A stretch of 64,000 bases of DNA from Gautieria morchelliformis (Eukaryota > Basidiomycota > Agaricomycetes > Gomphales > Gomphaceae), in NCBI GenBank assembly GCA_015179125.1, contig WHVA01000344.1, forward strand, positions 61,909 through 125,908, in the 5' to 3' direction. Shown here piece after piece: positions 1 to 64,000 of the stretch. The position numbers and the translations under genes are program-made. The first letter of the stretch is position 1, and every line of letters begins with the position of its first letter. The notes below the pieces were generated by a model, which worked only from the letters and a program-made list of their open reading frames with translations, was not told the origin of the DNA and searched no databases.

Positions 1-1612
1 TGTAATGGAGACCGGGCACCTGACTGTACCCTTTAGCGACAATTCGAACCTTGCGCTTAGTAATCTTGTTATCATGACGCGTCGTACGCAACCCTGTGCC
101 AGTCTTGAGCACCTGCGTATTTGGTGGAGGGGTTTCAGGTGCGCTAAACACTTCATGGTCTATCATATTTTGCCACTCAGCTTGCCATGCACGTTCCCAT
201 GCTTCTCCCTCTTCTCCAGGTAAGTTCAACGCGTCGTGTATACTCATTGGTTCTCCTATAATGTTGGCTGACATCATTATAGAATCTTCGAATTGTTCAT
301 CGCCTGCTACTAAGGACTGGACCGCTCCACGCTGCTTCCCAGACCGCGCCGTTCCTGGTGGGAAATCAGGTAGGTTCGACACTAATGTTGATTGCTTCTG
401 CTCAGACTGATCCGGGGTTACTTCCTCAATCGTGGCATGGCCCTGATCTTCAGGACCGTATTCGACGCGAGGGGGACGCACTGGGATGCGTATGAAAAGC
501 CGTGGGGTTGCTTTGGGAGCCACAACAGGTGCGTTAGCGGTTTTCGCTACATTTCGTCGTTCGTTAACGTTGCGAGGCGCGTCATCCTCACCGTACAACG
601 TGGGTGTAGCAGGTGCTACGGCTTCCTCATGGAAGAACACGTCTCTAGCCTTCTCCTTGACCCTGGATACCAAATGAGGTACCCAGACGGATAAGGCTCG
701 TATCCTACCATATACCCCATACGTGAGCGATTTTCCCATTTCTTTCATTTTTCTTTTGGGACTGTGACACTGACAGGACAGCCAAAGACCTTGATATGGG
801 TGAGGTCTGGCTTCTGTCCAGTAATACGCTCAAGAGGCGTGACCCCATTATTTGCCCGAGCTGGCGATCTGTTGCGAAGGTATGACATCGTTTTGACAGC
901 TACTGACCACAGATATTTTGGCAGCTTGGACGCATAAAGCATAGCACGCGCCCCCTCTGTGATCGTACGGATCGCTCTCTCGGCGACTCCGTTTTGTTCA
1001 TGAGTGTACGGGACGGACGTGTACAAGGTGATTCCCTTCTCTTTGATGAATCGGTTCATGTCTGAATTGACAAATTCTGTCCCATTATCTGCCATGAAAC
1101 TTCGAACCTTCGCTCTCTATCCGGTCTCGAACACGCGAACAAAATCACGGATCTTGGACACTACTTCGAACTTCAGGGTGAGTGCTTCCACCCATATTCC
1201 ACGGGAGTAATCATCAACGATGATGAGGAAGTATTTCTTTCCATCAAAGCTCGTTGTTTCCATGGGACCAGCAAGATCCATATGTACTAATTCTCCAATG
1301 TGAGTAGCACGAGTTCTTCCGAGTTTAAACGGCAACTTATGCTGTTTTCCATGGATGCAAGCTAAACAGTCAGCACTTCCGACTGTATCTTCCTCAATTT
1401 CGATACCCGTGGCATGATTCCGAGCCAAAGTACGTACGTCGGCAACATTCAAATGACCTAGACGCTGATGCCAACGCATGACATCATTGTCGGCCTTCGC
1501 TGTATACGCAATATAGGTCTGATCCTCCAGATCCTCGGCCGTAGGCTCATGCACGGCGTTTATGATCGGGAGAGGGGAGCTTGGCTGCACAATCGAGAAA
1601 CTTGCAGGGTAA
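1..1612 (-). pseudogene. copia integrase and N-terminal RT of copy 1
   Basis: The zinc-binding integrase start is visible as WHQRLGHL (about 1455-1478) and CLACIHGK (about 1349-1372). The integrase core follows with MDLAGP (first Asp), ADNGTEF (second Asp, near 1085) and AERAIRT (Glu, near 985). A TAG at 1117-1119 interrupts the core and a TGA at 743-745, compatible with a CGA to TGA change, ends the next open stretch. After a frameshift near 655-665 the frame is open to position 1 and reaches the RT start, with WQNMIDHEVF and KVRIVAKGYSQVPG. No functional product is expected. Confidence 0.9.
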
Positions 1613-1928
1613 TGTCAGGGTTCACGTGTTTCCTTCCACAAGTCTCTATTTCCTTCCATGAGTTTCCGTCACCTTCCGTCAGTTTCCATAACCTTCCGTC
1701 ACCTTCTGTCACATGTCACTTTCCGTCACTTTCCGTAACCTTCTACAAGTTTCCATCTCCCCTATTATGTAAGCCTTGCCAGCGCTATAAGACTGTAGCC
1801 CGTGTGGTGGCGTTTCCTCAGCTTGATCTCTGAGGATACCCACTACACAGTTGGTCATTGTCCTAGTATCGGCTCTTATCTCTTTGAGTATCTTTGGTTG
1901 TGGCTTCGTCATTAGTGTTGCCCTCACA
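1613..1928. mobile_element. solo LTR inserted into copia copy 1
   Basis: A 316 bp block begins TGTCAGGG and ends CCCTCACA (imperfect inverted termini, TG...CA) and is flanked on both sides by the same 5 bp, GGTAA (1608-1612 and 1929-1933). Removing the block plus one target copy restores the open frame of the surrounding copia polyprotein, which proves insertion. About 120 bp inside it is a degenerate array of CCTTCCGTCA-like units. No matching full element is present in this window, so whether it is a copia or gypsy LTR is open. Confidence 0.88.
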
Positions 1929-3267
1929 GGTAAGTATTACCCTGCTCATGGATGTCTGCTAATAACCGATCAGCAGGATCCTTCAAAATGCCGCCGGTCC
2001 TATGCAAATGGACCGTAAAACCATCCTTGATCAATTGACCTGGGGAAAATAAATGTGTATGGATATCTGGCGCCCATTGAACATGTGGTACGTCAACGAT
2101 ATATGATCCTTTGTCACCACTGACGTTTATTTTGATTATTCCCATCCCTCTGGAGGTTACTTCACCCCCGTTCGCCACTGTAAATGCTTTGGGATGGGGA
2201 AATGGCTCGAAGCTGTGTAAGTCCTCTATCCTGGGCACAAAATTGCCTGATGCTGCCATGTCTATAAAATATCGCCTCGTGACAGGGCTCTCTCCCATAA
2301 ACATCGAGGTCTCAATCGTAGAGAATAGACCTCTCGTGGTTGTAGAGCCAGAGGCTTTATTTTTGTCTTGATCGCTGGACTGTGAGTCCTTCTTTGTATC
2401 CTGTTGCAAACCGCCGTCCCTCTTTTTCTTCGGAGAGGAACAATTTTTGGAGAAATGACCTTGACCTCCACAGTTATAACATTTGCCGGAGCGTCCCGAG
2501 GACTTCTTCGGTGTGCTCCCCTTCGCACCCTGCGAGGTGCCTTGTGAGGCCCCCTGCAAAGTTGAAGCTGAGGTCGATCCAGGTTTCTGCTGTTTCTTCT
2601 TCGCTACAGCAAATGCCGAGCCTTCTGTGGCGGTGCACAAACCCTTCCTTATCTCCCCCTGACGCAGATTACTAACCAATTCTGCCACTGTGTCGTGATC
2701 CCAGTCGATGGTGTTGGTAACTGCGTCAAACTCCTCAAGGAGTGTGTTGACAAAGAAGCTAAGATAGAGCGGCTCCGGAACAGGATGGCCTGCTTCTATA
2801 AGCCTCAACCGTAGTGAGTCCATCCTAGCTTTATGCTCCATGATTCCAGAACCGTCGTAATGAATGTGAGTGATCTCTCCGAGCAGCGACGCTCTCGTAT
2901 TTGCTAAATGATTGCCATACACTGTATGCAGTGTGTTCCAGGCCAAACATGGGTCGCAATTATCACGAATCGCCGTCCGTTGCTGTTCTTCAAGACGCAG
3001 ATCAATTTCTGTGTACGCACGCTCCATCCGGAGCGTCCAAGCTTCTTCTAGCTCTAGCTCCTCATCAGTAGGAGCTTTCGAATCAGCTCGTGTCGGACTT
3101 GGAACTCTTCCCATCACGACCTCCCACTGGTTGAGGGATCGCAACATCGACTCCATGCTTGCGCTCCATGAAAAGTAATTGTCATGGTGCAACTATGGGA
3201 ACACCGAATAGGCAGTACCAGTACTTGACTGGTAATTATTCATTTTCTCGAGAGGCGTAGCTGGCAT
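1929..3267 (-). pseudogene. copia Gag and protease part of copy 1
   Basis: Encodes the RNA-binding capsid polyprotein. I place the original start at 3267 (ATG), because the 24 codons upstream of the TAG at 3193-3195 are open and the stop falls just before the conserved N-terminal motif HDNYFSWSASME of copia Gag. A CCHC zinc knuckle (CYNCGGQGHFSKNC) lies at about 2440-2482. The aspartic protease motif expected as D-S/T-G reads FIDMAASG at about 2247-2275, so the catalytic triplet is lost. The reading frame runs directly into the solo LTR, where it stops at 1924-1926; past the insertion it continues in the same frame. Confidence 0.88.
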
Positions 3268-6877: not shown

Positions 6878-8175
6878 CTACTGCATGGGACGTTCTTCGC
6901 ACCAAACATCCACAGGCACACCCCGCTTTACTAACAATGGAAGCGCGTCAAGCATACACTGCCCAAACCCACTATACACCTCCGGGTCCGTGGAGGCCAC
7001 CAAAAGCTCCATGTCCAGCTGCTCCAGTTTTAGAAACTTTCCTGCGAGAATGCAGTCAATTTGGCCCCAACCAGCAGCTGAGTACGCCTCCTCAAACGTA
7101 TCAGTATCAAATACCACTTCGAGTTCGATCAGTTCTAATTTGTTAGAAGTGTCAATATTAGAAAGGAACCGTTGAAGCCAGGCCGTCCCGAACGACCCCG
7201 AGTCCGCTGTGCCGACTTCCTCAATATTGATATTGGTCAAAGATAGGAAGCGAATATTCGAATTATATTCCAGTTTGATGTCGAACCCTAACCCTAGATC
7301 TAGAAACGCCGACCTATAAAGTTAAACAAATATATTTGAGTTCAAAATAGGTGGTCACTCACTCGGCCAACTGATTGGATCTGGCACGTAGAATTCCACT
7401 TGTATGAGTGAGCTACCAATGGTGCGAAGCAGGCGGTTTAAAGCTTTCTCGTCCTTGTCCTTGAGGAGATCTACGCGCAAATTCTGTATGTGCGATATCT
7501 CAAAAGGCGATCGAGGCCCAAGAAACCAGTCAACGTATAGGTCAAGGTTGCCTTCCATCGCCAATTCTAAATTCAGGTGAGAAAGGTAACTCCGCTCCCA
7601 TGGTTCATCATCCTCTTGATCTCCTCGCGTCAAGAGGTCCTGAAGCTGCCACGACGGCAAAATGACACAAGTTCTCAATATACCCATTAGACTTTCAGCG
7701 TGACATGCAAGGCTCACGAAGCTCGACCAATACAGTGCGTTAGGGACGTGAGCGAGGGTAGCAGGAGTATCCATCGAAGCGATTGGCAGAGATCTACTGT
7801 CAATTTACCCATTTCCAGATTGCATAGCTGTATGCTCTGGAGCTCGCTGAGCTTGCGTAACGCCGCCGCGGAGAGTGATTGATCTGGAGGCCTATAAACA
7901 ATTGCCCGTTCCGTGGTCCCACATTGGTCTGCACGCACGCGCACCTCCAGCTCTCGAATGTAATTGGGAAGGTGAGGAGAATCGAGTAAAACTTGAGACA
8001 GCTGCTCGCAGTCATCCTCGTCCAGAGCAAAAGTTACCCTCCGGAAAAGATGCCGTTGGCTCGAGAGAAGCCATGAGCGGCAAACTAGCGAACACGCAAG
8101 TAAAGCACCATGGTCCTCATGGAGGTTATCGGTAATAGCATCGATCAGCTCTCGTGGTAGCCTACTGGCCCCCAT
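6878..8175 (-). pseudogene. F-box protein, tandem copy 2 (13 bp deletion)
   Basis: This is a near duplicate of the gene at 4926-6233 with the same F-box start (MGASRLPRELIDAI at 8175), the same leucine-rich tail and the same 63 bp intron (7300-7362). At about 7720-7735 it lacks 13 bp present in copy 1, which shifts the frame. It retains the AGA codon at the place where copy 1 has a stop. The two copies therefore carry complementary lesions, and neither encodes the full protein unless the truncated F-box half is functional. Confidence 0.8.
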
Positions 8176-56656: not shown

Positions 56657-59600
56657 ATGTCGAGTAGCAATAACACGTACAAGATCGATCCCTTAAACGG
56701 GGATAATTACGCGGCATGGCGCCGGCGGCTCGAGTGGATACTCGATGACTCAGATCTGTGGGACGTGGCTATCGGAGACGGAACCGAGACCGGCAGATGC
56801 CGACAACGTCACTGCGACCGAACAGCAGGAGATCGACGATTGGAGAAGGAAAGACAAGAAAGCTAGAAAAGAGATTTGCCTCAGAGTTGCCGATGAACAA
56901 CTAGTTTACATCAATCAGACGATGTCTGCATTTGCTGTATGGACTAGTCTACAAGCAATATTCGAATCTAAGGGAGCAGTGGGGATTGTAAATCTCCGAA
57001 GAGATTTCTTCCGGACGCTTGCCGAGGACGGCGCGAACATGGAGGAGCACGTACGCAAGCTCCGCGGCATTCAACAGGAATTGAATGCACGGGGGCATTA
57101 CATCAGTGACACCGAGTTCTCGAACACGTTGCTGACGTCATTACCAGATTCTTGGTCGGCGTTTATTACGGCAGTAAACGCCAGTGGAGCCGGGACAACA
57201 GCTGATATATTAATAGCTCGGGTCCTCGATGAGGATCGAGCACGGAAAGCTGGATCGGCACGGCAGACGGCGCTTAAGGCGCAACAACGTCACAGGACCA
57301 AGAAAGATGACTCAGGAGCAACAAAGGGAAAATGCCGAAATTGCGGCAAGAAGGGTCATTACGTGAAGGACTGTTGGGCGAAAGGTGGCGGCAAGGAGGG
57401 CCAAGCACCGAAATGGTTCAAACCAGGGAACAAAGAAACAGTCAAACAAGCAGAAGAAAAGGACTTCGCATTTGTATCTAAGGAGGTAGCATACAGTGCT
57501 ATATCTGCATCCGACTGGTTAGCCGATTCAGCGGCAACAACACACATAGCTAGAAGCCGAAATGATTTCGCTAGCTATGCCGAGGAACCATCAGAAATCG
57601 AAGGAATTTCACCCGGTGCGGTACTACATACACAAGGCCGAGGCACGATCTACATGGAATTCAAGGTCGGCGCCAAGACGAACACGATCGAGCTACGTGA
57701 CGTCAAACACGCACCAGATGCACCGAACAACCTTATCAGCGTAGGGCGTTTAACTGATAAGGGCAACACGGCCACATTTTCAGGCACCGGCGTCGAATTC
57801 AAATCACGCGCCGGAGTTACCTTCGCACAGGGACAGAAGCGTGGGCGGCTATTCTGTATGAAGGCACGGGTCACTCGATCAGTCGAGGCACGGGACTTTG
57901 CCGCAGCGGCAAAAGGACGGTCATGGGACAAATGGCACAGGATACTCGGGCACGTCAACATAAATTCTATAAAGATGTTGAAATCTAACGATCTAGTCAC
58001 CGGACTTGAGATCGACGAGTCAAACGAGCCGAGCCAGTGCAAAGCATGCATACAAGGCAAGCGGCATGTGGAGCCGTTCCCCAAAAGAGCCGAGGACACT
58101 GCAGAACAGGTCGGTGACCTGATAGTATCCGATGTATGGGGACCTGCCCAGACTGAGGGACCATCACGTGAAAAATACTTTTATTCTTTCACGGACATCA
58201 AATCGAGGTACACGGTAATCTATTTTGGGAGCACCAAAGATGAAGCGCTCAAACACTTCGAGACGTACAAGGCATTCCTCGAGACCCAAACAGGTCAGAA
58301 ACTGAAGAGGTTTCGCTCGGATAATGGAGGGGAATATGTCAATAAAAATTTCAAGGAATTTTGTGCAAAATATGGCATTATCATGGAGACCACAGCTCCA
58401 TACTCCCCAGCCCAGAATGGAATCGCCGAACGACTCAACCGGACCTTACTCGAGCACGCACGGGCAATGATATTTGCCAAGAACCTGCCAAAAATACTCT
58501 GGCCCGAGGCCGTGGCTTACGCGTGTTATATCAAAAATCGATCACCCACGCGAGCGCTTGGAGATGACGCAACGCCGTTCCAAGCACTATTCGGCAAGAA
58601 GCCGAACATAGCACGTCTAGAGGAATTCGGGACAAATTGTTGGGTTATGGTGCCGGATCAACGTCGAGCCAAACTTGATCCAAAAGCAGAAGAACATATA
58701 TTCGTCGGAGTAGCTGAACATGCAAAGGCCTGGAGGTATTACAATAAAGCCTCAAAGCACGTTCAAATCTCAAGAAATATCACATTCGACGAAAGTGACA
58801 ATAAACTGTACCCTATCCCAGATAACGATGATGACGACACTACTACGGCACCGCTCGAGGGGGAGCACTCACCACGCGAGCATGTGCCGGACCTGATCAC
58901 ATCTACCCCACAGACGTCATCACCCCAGACAACACCCGTTCCTGATCCACCTGAACAAGCGCCAGCTCCACAGATTCGACGGAGCGCGCGTATCACTCAA
59001 AGACCGGATTACCGGAAGCTGAATAATTCAGGACGCACCGAGCAGGTTTACATAACGAAAGAAATCGTCACTGAACCTGAGAATTACAGAGCGGCGGTAT
59101 CACGTGATGATGCGCCGATCTGGGAGAAAGCAATGGAAATTGAGATGGACCAACACAAGACGTTAGGAACATGGGAGCTAACAGAACTACCACCCGGACG
59201 AATAGCTATCGGTTGCCGATGGGTATACGCTGTCAAAACACAACCGGACGGACAATTCGATAAGGCTAAAGCAAGGGTTGTGGCTCAAGGATTCACACAG
59301 AGGCCAGGGATGGATTACTACGAGATAACCTCACCCGTGGTCAAATTCGATTCACTACGTGTTCTATTAGCGATCGCAAACACACTCGATTGGGAAATCG
59401 AAATGATGGATGTCAAAGGCGCCTACCTCAATTCAACTATAGATGAGGAGATCTACATCCGCCAGCCCGACGGTTTTGACGATGGATCTGGACGTGTTCT
59501 AAGAATATACAGAGCGCTCTACGGACTCAAACAATCGGGACGAGCTTGGCATCAGCGCTTACGCAAATTACTACTCGATCTCGGCTTCCATCAAAGTACA

Positions 59601-59983
59601 GCCGATGAATGCGTCTACATCAGACAAGATAAGGATTCAATCGAAGTCATATCAGTATATGTAGACGACTTTGGACTATTTGCTGACTCCAAAGGAGGGA
59701 TGATTAAGCTCAAGGGGGAGCTTCATGGGAAATTCCCTTTAACAGATTTAGGAGAAATGAAGAAAATCTTGGGAATTAGAGTTGAGAGGAATAGGGATGA
59801 GGGAACACTGATCATGTCACAAGGGCATTACATCGACATCATACTCGATCGATTCAACATGACAACAGCACATTCCGTATCTACACCTCTGCATAAAATG
59901 ATCAAACTCACGACACCCATGGACTCGACAGGTCCAACTGCCGAAGTACCCTATGCCAAGGCGATCGGATCACTCATGTATGC
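56657..59983 (+). pseudogene. copia Gag-Pol polyprotein, copy 2 (nearly intact, split by a gypsy insertion)
   Basis: Gag begins at 56657 (MSSSNNTYKIDPLNGDNY). A single-base indel near 56790 shifts into the long frame that runs to the insertion. Order and landmarks: CCHC knuckle CRNCGKKGHYVKDC (about 57333), protease LADSAATTH where D-S-G is expected, integrase WHRILGHV and CKACIQGK, VSDVWGP, RSDNGGEY and AERLNRTLL for the DDE triad, then RT with RVVAQGFTQRPG and YVDD (about 59660). Coding stops being copia at 59983, after GSLMYA, exactly where the gypsy LTR begins. The RNase H end should lie beyond the right edge. Apart from the frameshift it looks young. Confidence 0.9.
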
Positions 59984-60684
59984 TGTTACGTATCGAGATT
60001 TCCACTAAGTCGGAACTGGAAAGGACAGCGGCTTCAACTTATAGGTTGCGCCCCCAATGAACTATCGTCCTAGGTATTTCGGAAATGAGCCGGAAGTCGG
60101 AAGGTACTGGACCAGAGGTTTGGTCGGAACCTGAGTCGGAACAGAGGCGGAAGGCGGAAAGCGGAAGACGGAAGGCTGAGAGAGAGACTGAGATCTTGCT
60201 AGACTCGCTGTGCTAAGAACAGGAGATGGAGCGAAGGAAATCAAGTATCGAAGGTGATTATCTGATTGCAGAATAACAGACATACATGAGGGGGGTTTTA
60301 TACAAAGCGCAGAGCAACAAGTAATGGTGTTGTACTAAGCAAATTCCGGAGGAAGCGGAAGTCGAGTACAATGTGTGGGAACTAACTAATTGGGAACAAT
60401 GGGACTACAAGGGGGGTTCAGGGTAAGGTAGAACAATGGCAAAGAACAAGGGGTCGGGAAAACATATCTGACAACGAACTACAAGGGTGACCGGATATAA
60501 GGTTTTGATGGATGACGAGGTGGGTCCGGTGGGTCCGGGTAATAGAGTCGAAAGAACAAGGGAAATGTACAAGGGGTGGAATGTCGGAAATGTCGGAGGG
60601 GCGGAACGTTGTGGCGGAACTATTGGAGAGGCGGAATGTATGGCGGAACTGAGGGTCGGAAGTCGGAAATGAACGGTCGTAACA
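59984..60684 (-). repeat. 3' LTR of the gypsy element
   Basis: A 701 bp block with perfect inverted ends TGTTACG...CGTAACA. Its left edge coincides with the point where copia coding ends. It contains about 18 CGGAA words, ten of them in the first 200 bp. The sequence just outside its right edge is purine-rich on the minus strand, as expected for the polypurine tract. Confidence 0.88.
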
Positions 60685-60697
60685 GTATCTCCCTTCT
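60685..60697 (-). promoter_or_regulatory. polypurine tract of the gypsy element
   Basis: Minus strand AGAAGGGAGATAC abuts the LTR start TGTTACG, the usual position for plus-strand priming. Confidence 0.65.
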
Positions 60698-60806
60698 AAG
60701 GTCGAGCCCCGCGAGACCACAAGTCGGAATCACGTGACCTGTGAACAAACGCGTCGGAGTTTGAAATATAGGCGGGAAACAAGACGCGTTTTCTGTTTAC
60801 TCCATC

Positions 60807-62012
60807 ATGAGCTCTTCAGTCGATTTCTCTAAAATGTCCAGTGCCGAGATGAAGCAGCACTTTGCTGATATTCTTGCGCAGAAGGAACTGGCCGAGAAGC
60901 GCGAGGCCGAGGAAGCCGCGCGGAAAGAGAGGGAGCGGCTGGAGGAGGAGCGCAAGGAACTGGAGCGTCGGGAGCAGGAACGGAAGGAGAAGGAGGAGCG
61001 TGACCGTAAGCGTCGCGAGGAGGAGTCGCGCGCCCGTGAAGAACAACGGAAACGGAATGCGGCCGAAAAGGCTGCGGAAGAAAAGGCCGTGGCGGAAAAG
61101 GCAGGGAAGTTCCGGGTGAGTCGGAAATGTCATGGGGAGGTTCCGGTGCTCACAGAGAACTGCCAGAGAGTTGCCGATTCCGAGGGGGAGTCGGAAGCGG
61201 AAAGCACGCCGACTCCAGAGGGCAAGGGGAAGCAAAGAGAAAGTGCTCCCATGCCGAACGTAGTTGAGGAGCGGAAACGGAGGGCGGACGAGTTCCAGCA
61301 GGCTCGGAAGGAGAAGCTGGCTCGGATACTGGAGTTGCGAGAGCTGGGACCGGAAAATCCTGCGAACCGGAAAAGGAAGACCAGGGACGGTGAGGAGGAG
61401 AAGGCTCCTTGCGATACGTGCGAGGTCAAGGGCCTGGAGTGCGTGTGGTCGGAAAATCCGCGGGAGACGGCCTGCGAGCGGTGCCGGGACAAGAAGTGCC
61501 GTTGCGTGGTGGATGGGTGTGCCGCTAGGGTGGAGCGGAAACGGCGCAGGGTTGAGACCGAGGGGCCTGAAACCCCCAAGTCAAAACCGGGACCAAGCGG
61601 AAAGAAGGCGGAAGGGTTTCCGGTGACCGGAACATCGGAAACAGCGGTGCTGAACCGCTTCAGCATGGCATCTCCGCTGCTAGACATCGCGGAGTCGCTG
61701 AGGGGGATCCGGAAAACCCAACGCGGGATCCGGAAGCTGCTGACGGATATGGCGGTGGTTCAGGAACAGCAGTTGCTGTCGTTCCAGAACCAGATGACCG
61801 TCATGTCGGCGGTCCTGGAGCAGTTCAAGCGCGAGTACCGGTGGCGGAACGAGATGGTCCGGGAAAGGATGGAACCACGGGTGCAGGAGGAGAACGAGGC
61901 GGAAACGAGGGAACGGTTAGACACGGAGTTGGTGGTCGTCGAGGTAGGAGGGTCGGAAAAGGACCCGGAAGCGGAAAGGGAGGTCGAGGCGGAGACCATG
62001 AGGGAGGAGTAG
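60807..62012 (+). CDS. coiled-coil Zn(II)2Cys6 protein encoded antisense inside the gypsy element
   Basis: Intact 401-codon frame opposite to pol, starting 123 bp inside the 3' LTR edge and ending 135 bp from the pol stop. Residues about 25-95 are a charged coiled coil (Glu/Lys/Arg-rich). At residues 202-233 the cysteines follow CX2CX6CX10CX2CX6C (C202, 205, 212, 223, 226, 233), matching the fungal Gal4-type binuclear zinc cluster; a basic run RVERKRRR follows. A second helical region lies at about 290-360 and the C-terminus is acidic. Family knowledge: such clusters bind CGG triplets. I infer a DNA-binding role on the element's own CGGAA-rich DNA. It could also be a captured host gene. Confidence 0.8.
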   Translation: MSSSVDFSKMSSAEMKQHFADILAQKELAEKREAEEAARKERERLEEERKELERREQERKEKEERDRKRREEESRAREEQRKRNAAEKAAEEKAVAEKAGKFRVSRKCHGEVPVLTENCQRVADSEGESEAESTPTPEGKGKQRESAPMPNVVEERKRRADEFQQARKEKLARILELRELGPENPANRKRKTRDGEEEKAPCDTCEVKGLECVWSENPRETACERCRDKKCRCVVDGCAARVERKRRRVETEGPETPKSKPGPSGKKAEGFPVTGTSETAVLNRFSMASPLLDIAESLRGIRKTQRGIRKLLTDMAVVQEQQLLSFQNQMTVMSAVLEQFKREYRWRNEMVRERMEPRVQEENEAETRERLDTELVVVEVGGSEKDPEAEREVEAETMREE

Positions 62013-62146
62013 GGTGTCAAGGTGACTTGTAGTATTTTTCTTGAAGTGTCGGAAATTAGCATATCGGAATAATAATCGGATTTTCTTTTGAATTATGACT
62101 TGAGAAATGTAAGCGAGCCGTGGTGTCGGAATGAGGTCGGAATTGA

Positions 62147-64000
62147 CTAGGGCGCGGAAATGGGGCCAGGCTTGTCAGGATATGACTTGTGGAAGTCAGA
62201 GACGAGGTCAGAGGCGTGGTCAAGTTCCGTGGCGGAAATCCACGAGGTCTCTTCGTCGGTGTTTTCATAGCCTGCCCACTTGACTAGGTACTGGAGTTGG
62301 CAGCGGTATCGTCTGTCGAGCTTGGAGTTGAGAATTTCCGAAATCTCATATTCCGGTTCTCCGTCGATGACGACTGGCGGAGGCGGAGGTTGTTCTCGAT
62401 TCGGAATTGTATTCGGAACTGCTGGCTCAAGCATAGAGACATGGAATACCGGATGTACTGCGCGCATATTGTCAGGAAGTCTGAGGGTGAAAGAACGACT
62501 GCCGGCCTTAGCGATGATCTCGTAAGGACCGAGGTATTTCTCAGAGAGCTTCTTCGAGGGGCGAGTGGTGCGGAAGTTTTCCGCTTTGACAAAGGCTTTG
62601 TCGCCTATCTCGAATGCCGGTTGCGGAAGGCGTTTCCGATCGGCGGAAGTTTGGTATCTCTTCTGGGCAGCGGTAATGTTCTCTCGGAGGTGCTGGTGAA
62701 GGTCGTCAAGTTCCACAACGAAATCTCGGGCTCTTGCAGAGGCGAGGTCGCGTTCAGGGTGGATGGCGAGATTCGGGTGGTAGCCCTTGTTGGCATAAAA
62801 GGGTGAAATTCCGGTGGTAGCGGAAGGCGCGTTGTTGTAGGCAAATTCCGCGAGCGGAAGAAGGTCGGACCAATTGCTATGTTGGTAGTTGCAATAGACG
62901 CGGAGATACTGCTCAAGGGTCTGATTAGTACGTTCCGTTTGTCCGTCTCCTTCGGGGTGATAACCGGAAGTGAAGTGGAGCTTCATGTCGAGAGCCTTGC
63001 CGAGTGTGCGGAAAAAGGAGGACACGAATTCGGACCCACGGTCGGAAGTGACATGGGAAGGGATTCCGTGCTTGGAAAAGACATGGAGCACAAAGAGCTG
63101 TGCGAGCTGGGCGGAAGTTATGGTGTCGTATGTTGGAATAAAGATGGACTGCTTTGTGAGGCGGTCAACGATCACTAGAATGGTATCGTAGCCGGATGAC
63201 TTAGGAAGTTTCTCAATGAAATCCATGGATATCGAATTCCACGGTTGGTCCGGGATCGGAAGTTGTTTCAGGAGGCCGTAGGGTTTGTGACGTTGAGGCT
63301 TGGCTCGCATACAGGTGGTGCATGACTTGCAGTAGTCTTGGACCATCGTGCGGAGGAGAGGCCAAGTATAGGTGCGTCGGATTATGTCGAGGGTCTTGTT
63401 CTGGCCTTGGTGTCCTGAGAGCGGATGATCGTGGTTTTGCTGGAGTACGCGAAGTCGTAGATCGTTGGTGTCCGGAACGTAAATCCGGGACTTGTACCGG
63501 AGAAATCCGTCGGAATCGAGGGACCATCCAGGACTGGTGGGGTAATCGAGGTGGGTTGCGGAGGTGGGGTCGGAACGGAGTGCGGAACGGATGTCGGAAT
63601 GGATAGACTCGGTGTCCATAATAATTGAGGCACGGAGTAGTGGAAACTGCAATGCTGTGGCACGCAGGGACGATGCCAGTTGCTCAGTGGAGAATACTGG
63701 GCGGAAATTGTGCGGATTAACGCTGGCATAGTCGCTACTTCCCTCTTTTGGGTAGACGTCCCAACGTCTAGTGAGCGCGTCGGGTTTTGCTCCGAGCTTT
63801 CCGGGGCGGAAGCGGATCACCATGTTGAACTGTGAGAGGTATTCAGACCAGCGGACTTGACGGCGAGTCAAAATCTTAGTGGTTGCAAAATACTCAAGGT
63901 TCTTATGATCCGTTACAACGTCGATCGGATAAGTTGGACCTTCGAGGTAATGTCTCCAGATTTTGAAGGCTTCGAAAATCGCAAGTAGTTCCTTATCGTG
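62147..64000 (-). CDS. gypsy Pol, C-terminal part: RNase H, integrase, chromodomain (partial)
   Basis: Open from the right edge to a TAG at 62147-62149, at least 617 residues. RNase [20 protein letters not shown] and [10 protein letters not shown]. Integrase zinc domain: H-D-H..H-x-G-x-x-KT and [11 protein letters not shown]. Core: SMDFIEKLP (Asp), TSDRGSEF (Asp), PEGDGQTER (Glu). Then a GPY/F-type KYLGPYEI and a chromodomain ending the protein ([28 protein letters not shown]), which in chromoviruses directs insertion to modified histones. No lesion is seen, so the element may be active. The N-terminal Gag, protease and RT lie outside the window. Confidence 0.93.

Follow-up and report, generated by a model that had tools for sequence, protein, structure and literature searches.

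An antisense gene under purifying selection and an accumulated DNA word in chromodomain gypsy elements of Gautieria morchelliformis

The element and its antisense gene

A Ty3/gypsy retrotransposon, here assigned to family A, occupies the right end of a 64,000-nucleotide stretch (the window) of contig WHVA01000344.1 from the ectomycorrhizal fungus Gautieria morchelliformis. A G. morchelliformis gene model matches this genome with 100% identity along its first 81 residues, which identifies the host. The element lies on the minus strand and splits a copia pol frame at 59983/59984; its own pol is incomplete, extending beyond the window edge, where the contig also ends. Between pol and the 3′ long terminal repeat (LTR) lies an open reading frame (ORF A) in antisense orientation that encodes a six-cysteine cluster, and the surrounding DNA is densely sown with the word CGGAA (Table 1). 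An earlier note on this DNA had proposed that the element encodes a DNA-binding protein for its own CGGAA-tagged sequence. We describe here the selection acting on gene and word, the related families B and C, and the case for a self-encoded reader.

The note's description of a chromodomain gypsy element was confirmed by the H2C2, rve, SH3_Tf2-1, and Chromo domains on the minus strand. Together with RNase H, LTRs with target duplications, and a gag bearing a CCHC zinc knuckle (recognized by eye), these features place family A among the Ty3/gypsy chromoviruses. Two complete copies elsewhere in the genome possess 682-bp LTRs that are 99.4% and 99.9% identical, flanked by 5-bp target duplications identified by eye. 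The LTRs of a diverged copy, L033, are 91% identical and lack a matching target duplication. At 7398–8057 of L033, the right LTR runs on into the first bases of the internal region (GTATCT), again with no target duplication in the flanks, which suggests a recombinant or tandem copy. A scan of viral contigs with pol retrieved no relative.

Table 1. Features at the right end of the window
Feature	Position	Strand	Remark
Copia pol frame broken by the family A insertion	56745..60008	+	CGGAA not enriched
Family A 3′ LTR, 701 bp, TGTTACG...CGTAACA	59984..60684	-	18 CGGAA and 1 TTCCG on the + strand
Purine-rich stretch adjoining the 3′ LTR, candidate polypurine tract	60688..60697	-	inferred from sequence
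Field of 70 CGGAA and 15 TTCCG through LTR, antisense ORF, and pol	60009..64000	+
TATA-like AATATA, 42 nt upstream of the ORF start	60765..60770	+	putative promoter element
Antisense gene (ORF A), 401 codons, no stop, between pol and 3′ LTR	60807..62012	+	purifying selection; ORF reading, dN/dS
CX2CX6CX10CX2CX6C cluster, residues 202-233 (C202-X2-C205-X6-C212-X10-C223-X2-C226-X6-C233)	61410..61505	+
Hydrophobic-repeat helix, residues 282-341	61650..61829	+	by eye
pol 3′ part, 617 codons: RNase H, H2C2, integrase core (rve), SH3 (SH3_Tf2-1), Chromo	62147..64000	-	Pfam
Chromodomain, pol residues 551-605	62186..62350	-	Pfam

Purifying selection on ORF A

The 401-codon frame is intact, as the note had reported, and its place and orientation are those of the antisense ORFs (aORFs) known from other gypsy elements. 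A genome search with ORF A, in which the best 103 of 1078 first-look candidates were scored, listed 107 matches, and 74 of these best matches contain no in-frame stop by hand count. Selection was measured as the NG86 ratio of nonsynonymous to synonymous substitution rates (dN/dS) in copies taken for their protein score or because they were diverged but open, a choice that biases the set toward intact copies; L023 and L025–L030, which are partial or frameshifted, were excluded, and two of them (L028 and L030) each have a 1-bp deletion of independent origin within the gene. Among 22 close copies (231 pairs) the ratio is 0.18; it is 0.21–0.26 for 23 copies (L001–L022 and L024) compared with L033 or L034 at dS 0.45–0.56, with higher values for L033 versus L034 (0.40) and for L001 versus L024 (0.31). 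For L001 against L033 and L034, the +1 and +2 frames of the same region give 1.2–1.45. Among the three reverse frames, the ratio is 0.37 in the one sharing third positions and 1.1–1.6 in the remaining two. The two alternative forward frames of L001 contain 10–13 stops.

ORF A is a real gene under purifying selection, with most ratios at 0.18–0.26. That the ORF is a chance reading frame is refuted by this test and retains a negligible probability. Such a reading could appeal to protein searches, in which no homologue outside Gautieria was found among the best 8000 candidates scored, and to the lack of a Pfam match above cut-off, but it is contradicted by a dN/dS of about 0.2, by the conservation of frame and cysteines, and by an antisense intron in the corresponding gene of family C. 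The searches themselves, conducted with ORF A and a six-copy ORF A alignment (each scoring the 8000 candidates sharing most words) and with the family C protein, returned two Gautieria gene models and nothing else. Comparison with solved structures yielded two matches with E values of 0.16 and 0.19, which are not meaningful.

The six cluster cysteines, described in the note as a perfect motif, are intact in all 25 family A copies examined, while a nearby seventh, C231, varies. Gal4-type Zn2Cys6 proteins display the spacing CX2CX6CX5-12CX2CX6-8C, and the 25 copies fall within that range. Residues 282–341 are likely a dimerization coiled coil, judging by eye from their hydrophobic repeat.

In the comparison of L001 with L033 and L034, pol gives a dN of 0.02, a dS of 0.16–0.20, and a ratio of 0.12 (a pol ratio of 0.368 for the 22 close copies was set aside because rows L002 and L009 were misaligned). 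The antisense gene has a dS of about 0.5 between the same copies, as if it had diverged faster than pol or had been swapped between subfamilies. Because pol is slower in this comparison, the antisense gene appears to be the faster-evolving module.

A DNA word selected in families A and B

The note's estimate of about 70 CGGAA in 4 kb proved accurate: the 70 occurrences in 60009–64000 compare with 9.6 expected from dinucleotides, and positions 1–56700 of the window hold 25 against 47.7 expected (summed). Word enrichment was tested with both strands pooled, by synonymous or Markov shuffling, against a null for the maximum over all 5-mers. CGGAA/TTCCG ranks first in the family A ORF, pol, gag, and LTR (z 7.3, 10.5, 6.9, and 13.0), with the 99% point of the shuffled maximum at 4.6–6.2; in the 256 nt of spacer flanking ORF A, it drops to third place and falls short of significance (z 4.0 versus 5.3). 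A large excess remains after synonymous-codon shuffling of the ORF, pol, and gag, and codon usage or protein composition was accordingly rejected as its source. Between subfamilies of A, with every site counted in both directions, CGGAA is retained above other CpG 5-mers (194/253 versus 2800/4104 and 136/170 versus 1726/2628).

The same word is enriched in family B, whose pol is 43% identical to that of A. This family was sampled as 29 of 30 PF24626 loci, reaching at most 1.5 kb past the SH3 domain, plus two complete copies. The family is compact; gag is open in both complete copies, and their pol frame spans 1429 codons. One locus, L065 (8.5 kb with flanks), contains 71 CGGAA against 12.8 expected and 55 TTCCG against 11.0. 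The word again ranks first in pol, gag, and LTR (z 14.8, 7.4, and 8.7), three further copies agree (z 6.3–7.2), and overall it is the top word in four of the five parts of A and all three of B. Within family B pol, it stands on both strands, 42 and 33 times, so it appears to be read as DNA rather than RNA, and an RNA-level signal was rejected on this ground. Aligned A and B pol share 2 CGGAA and 5 TTCCG sites; with so few in common, the words of B mostly arose separately.

Outside these families, eight copia loci contain 16 CGGAA against about 28 expected and 6 TTCCG against about 25 (summed), and the best words of these loci and of six other window frames remain within the null. CGGAA is thus accumulated in family A and not in the copia loci or the rest of the window, with family B as the exception. 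It is selected at the DNA level, in coding and noncoding parts alike.

A different antisense gene and word in family C

A second pairing of antisense gene and word was found in family C, represented by one copy in one 4.3-kb stretch, with a pol 73% identical to that of A over 705 residues. Its antisense gene occupies the same place and comprises two exons (69 and 271 codons) separated by a GT-AG intron of 46 nt; the splicing is predicted from sequence, in that intron removal gives an open 340-codon frame, whereas the unspliced frame stops after 75 codons. The sequence GGATAAAA stands at −46 from the start of this gene, in the same place as the TATA-like site of family A. The encoded protein contains CX2CX6C-X15-CX2CX6C followed by basic and helical parts (by eye) and is unlike that of A except for the CX2CX6C pair; its X15 falls outside the Gal4-type range. 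A search with exon 2 gave 267 matches among the best 142 of 566 candidates scored. In a side observation, the gene model JB92DRAFT_3117889 consists of an unrelated N-terminal region followed by the C-terminal part of the family C protein.

The 4.3 kb contain 48 CCTCG against 10.8 expected and 26 CCGAG against 6.5, and CCTCG/CGAGG is in excess in each piece taken separately (19 versus 3.9 in pol, L076; 29 versus 7.0 in the ORF/LTR piece, L075). CCGAG and CGAGG rank first and second in C pol (z 7.6 and 5.0; 99% null 4.8). CGGAA is not enriched there, at rank 248, nor in L075 (1 versus 2.7 expected; TTCCG 6 versus 4.0), and aligned pol contains 8 CGGAA plus TTCCG in C against 34 in A. On the LTR strand antisense to pol, CGGAA outnumbers its complement 18:1 in A and 9:2 in B, and CGAGG does so 8:0 in C; CCGAG in the C LTR displays no strand polarity (4:5). 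Protein and word therefore change together between A and C, as far as one copy of C can tell. Since the two pols are 73% identical and reside in the same genome, genome-wide mutation bias does not explain both words; it was rejected on this basis and because neither the copia loci nor window DNA elsewhere is enriched.

A related proposal treats the words as arising incidentally from composition, codon choice, or mutation, with no role in recognition. Simple repeats can yield over-represented words, ORF A is partly a charged repeat, and the copia frame of the window has a borderline word of its own. Against this stand the excess that outlasts synonymous shuffling in three A genes, two B genes, and C pol (not C ORF exon 2), the failure of any word to exceed the null in eight copia loci or in six further frames of the window, and the occurrence of two distinct words in one genome. 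We regard this explanation as already largely refuted and very improbable.

A proposed self-encoded reader and its alternatives

The simplest account of these data is that the antisense protein reads the word, because the word occurs in LTR, gag, pol, and the antisense gene itself, on both strands, and differs between sister families along with the protein. A promoter just inside the family A 3′ LTR would drive a putative dimeric zinc-cluster DNA-binding protein, antisense to gag-pol, that could bind CGGAA in trans on all copies. Selection would have multiplied the word through LTR and coding DNA, with occupied copies staying transcribable through activation and/or anti-silencing, so that denser copies amplify more; dense arrays would provide specificity, as with VANC21 of Arabidopsis. 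Keeping copies active is the best bet for the protein's function since selection multiplies its sites. Sister family C would have diverged in both halves, toward an unalike antisense Cys-cluster protein and CCGAG/CGAGG, and family B would have evolved the word of A without the gene, as a freeloader on A's protein. We hold this scheme, in which an antisense zinc-cluster protein reads its own family's word and thereby keeps copies transcribable while B freeloads, to be close to evenly balanced, tilting slightly toward true.

An opposite role for a word-binding protein is conceivable, as a repressor, in copy-number control, or in steering integration to tagged copies. The antisense placement with its own TATA-like site and the insertion of the window copy inside another retroelement would fit, but many sites selected in three families are easier to understand if binding benefits the copy, and we consider such roles improbable.

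Family B bears most directly on who reads the word. No match to ORF A at E 1e-3 was found in its 29 loci, nor was the Cys-cluster pattern found in these loci or the two complete copies. The note had proposed testing whether gene and word co-occur in relatives and had named equally dense copies lacking the ORF as evidence against itself; B, as strongly enriched and with no ORF found, is such a case. CGGAA density consequently needs no ORF in cis, and the word is no exclusive tag of the element that supplies the reader. The proposed self-recognition module thus stands in part: the gene is selected, the word is selected as DNA, and the different gene and word of C strengthen the idea of a reader with its word, while B weakens the claim of a private tag.

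A host reader would accommodate B more directly. The words could be bound by transcription factors or chromatin proteins of the host (CGGAA in A and B, another in C), with the antisense proteins serving nuclear import, targeting, or repression. This view gains from the presence of CGGAA in B pol, gag, and LTR without a detected antisense gene, and from the similar flanks of the word in A and B, with A rare at −1, with T at +6, and with G at +7 and +8. It is opposed by the shift of the word along with the antisense protein between A and C despite 73% pol identity, and by the absence of enrichment in the eight copia loci and in window DNA beyond the element; on balance, we find it rather unlikely. 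Family B is the key test, being either a freeloader or the sign of a host reader. Our reading is that each antisense protein binds its own family's word and that B uses A's protein in trans or a host factor.

Several further results count against a self-encoded zinc-cluster reader. Pfam Zn_clus scores the ORF A protein at 12.4 bits, below the cut-off of 21 (13.3 bits in L034; no match in L033 or family C), and neither the A nor the C proteins tested matched any Pfam family above cut-off, so that the label Gal4-type rests on cysteine spacing. A profile comparison of A and C (hhalign) aligned the cluster alone, and weakly (E 0.035, probability 1.5%). The extra conservation of CGGAA is modest, at ranks 15 and 21 of 63 CpG 5-mers and 2 and 11 of 33. 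The family C pairing comes from a single copy, no word is significant in its ORF exon 2 (best z 4.4 versus 4.9), and CCGAG alone passes, narrowly, in its LTR (6.1 versus 5.9; CGAGG 4.1). The copia frame at 56745–60008 has its own borderline word, CGGCA/TGCCG (z 6.8 versus 5.1 in one run, 5.2 versus 5.3 in another), and in a single-strand test run without the best-word null, other words scored z 5.7 and 5.5 in copia frames, close to the 5.9 of C pol.

Comparison with known systems

The closest functional parallel is found in the VANC anti-silencing proteins of Arabidopsis VANDAL transposons (PMC5735166, PMC10398659, PMC12859917). Targets of VANC21 are marked by same-orientation arrays of one short motif, and the VANC6 word also occurs in an unrelated transposable element, AT9TSD1 (PMC5735166); a meeting report mentions unpublished findings on the coevolution of VANC proteins and targets (PMC12859917). 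As far as these sources describe them, VANC systems share with families A and C an element-encoded sequence-specific protein (here predicted), piled-up short words, and joint divergence, and AT9TSD1 parallels family B in carrying another element's word. Differences are also evident: VANDAL is a Mutator-like DNA transposon and family A an LTR retrotransposon; VANDAL words lie mainly in noncoding tandem repeats, while those described here extend into coding DNA through synonymous choices; and VANC binding and demethylation have been demonstrated experimentally, while the family A protein is a predicted binder, likened to VANC by its proposed role.

Gal4-type Zn2Cys6 proteins read CGG triplets. 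ORF A resembles them in its CX2CX6CX10CX2CX6C cluster, basic stretch, and subsequent coiled-coil-like helix; it differs in its Pfam score below cut-off, and family C differs in its spacer of 15 residues and in its words CCGAG/CGAGG, which are not a plain CGG repeat.

In fungi, Zhao et al. (2011, Virology 417:248) reportedly described brtn from Boty-like Ty3/gypsy elements of Botrytis cinerea. It is the antisense extra gene of Boty (PMC8365987, PMC4227169, PMC7264820) and, like ORF A, lies between pol and the 3′ LTR of a fungal chromodomain gypsy element. The available accounts of brtn mention neither a Cys cluster nor an accumulated DNA word, and the likeness drawn here is one of place and orientation. 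Plant gypsy elements with aORFs include Grande (gene23), RIRE2, Retand (TRP28), and PvRetro13; their function is described as unknown, and the Grande aORF has its own promoter (PMC7264820, PMC11963269). DNA binding is predicted for the TRP28 protein of Retand (PMC11963269). These plant aORFs match ORF A in place and orientation, and their proteins are nuclear or predicted to bind DNA; they differ in host and protein domains, those sources describe no short word to match, and Retand is no chromovirus. The antisense protein HBZ of HTLV-1 is a nuclear regulator (PMC11963269), and HTLV possesses an antisense promoter in its 3′ LTR (PMC7264820). HBZ thus resembles the putative family A protein as an antisense regulator of a retroelement, differing, as these sources present it, in belonging to an unrelated retrovirus. 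To our knowledge, HTLV-1 has no accumulated word. In a literature survey by title, abstract start, and term counts, which covered few subscription papers, none of the works listed brought together an antisense gene of a retrotransposon, a zinc cluster, and word accumulation.

More generally, fungal chromoviruses may carry a modular self-recognition system, in which an antisense zinc-cluster gene and a matching word of 5–6 bases, inscribed throughout the element and into its coding DNA through synonymous choice, switch together between sister families, and gene-less families cheat by adopting the word of a neighbor; we advance this tentatively, with somewhat less than even confidence. If true, VANC-like self-recognition evolved independently in fungal retrotransposons with a Gal4-like reader, long-unexplained antisense genes near 3′ LTRs gain a candidate function, and natural reader/word pairs and a candidate cheater are on hand. 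Being visible at synonymous sites, such a word is searchable in any genome, and its recognition is testable by simple binding assays.

Additional observations

The gene model JB92DRAFT_3134898 (locus G000:C763:29442-31593) fuses the N-terminus of ORF A to a PF20414 protein and may have arisen by exon capture or as a chimera of gene prediction. At its left end, the window contains remnants of a distant second copia-like element at 655–3102 (35% and 22% identity), and its first 2 kb hold 8 TTCCG.

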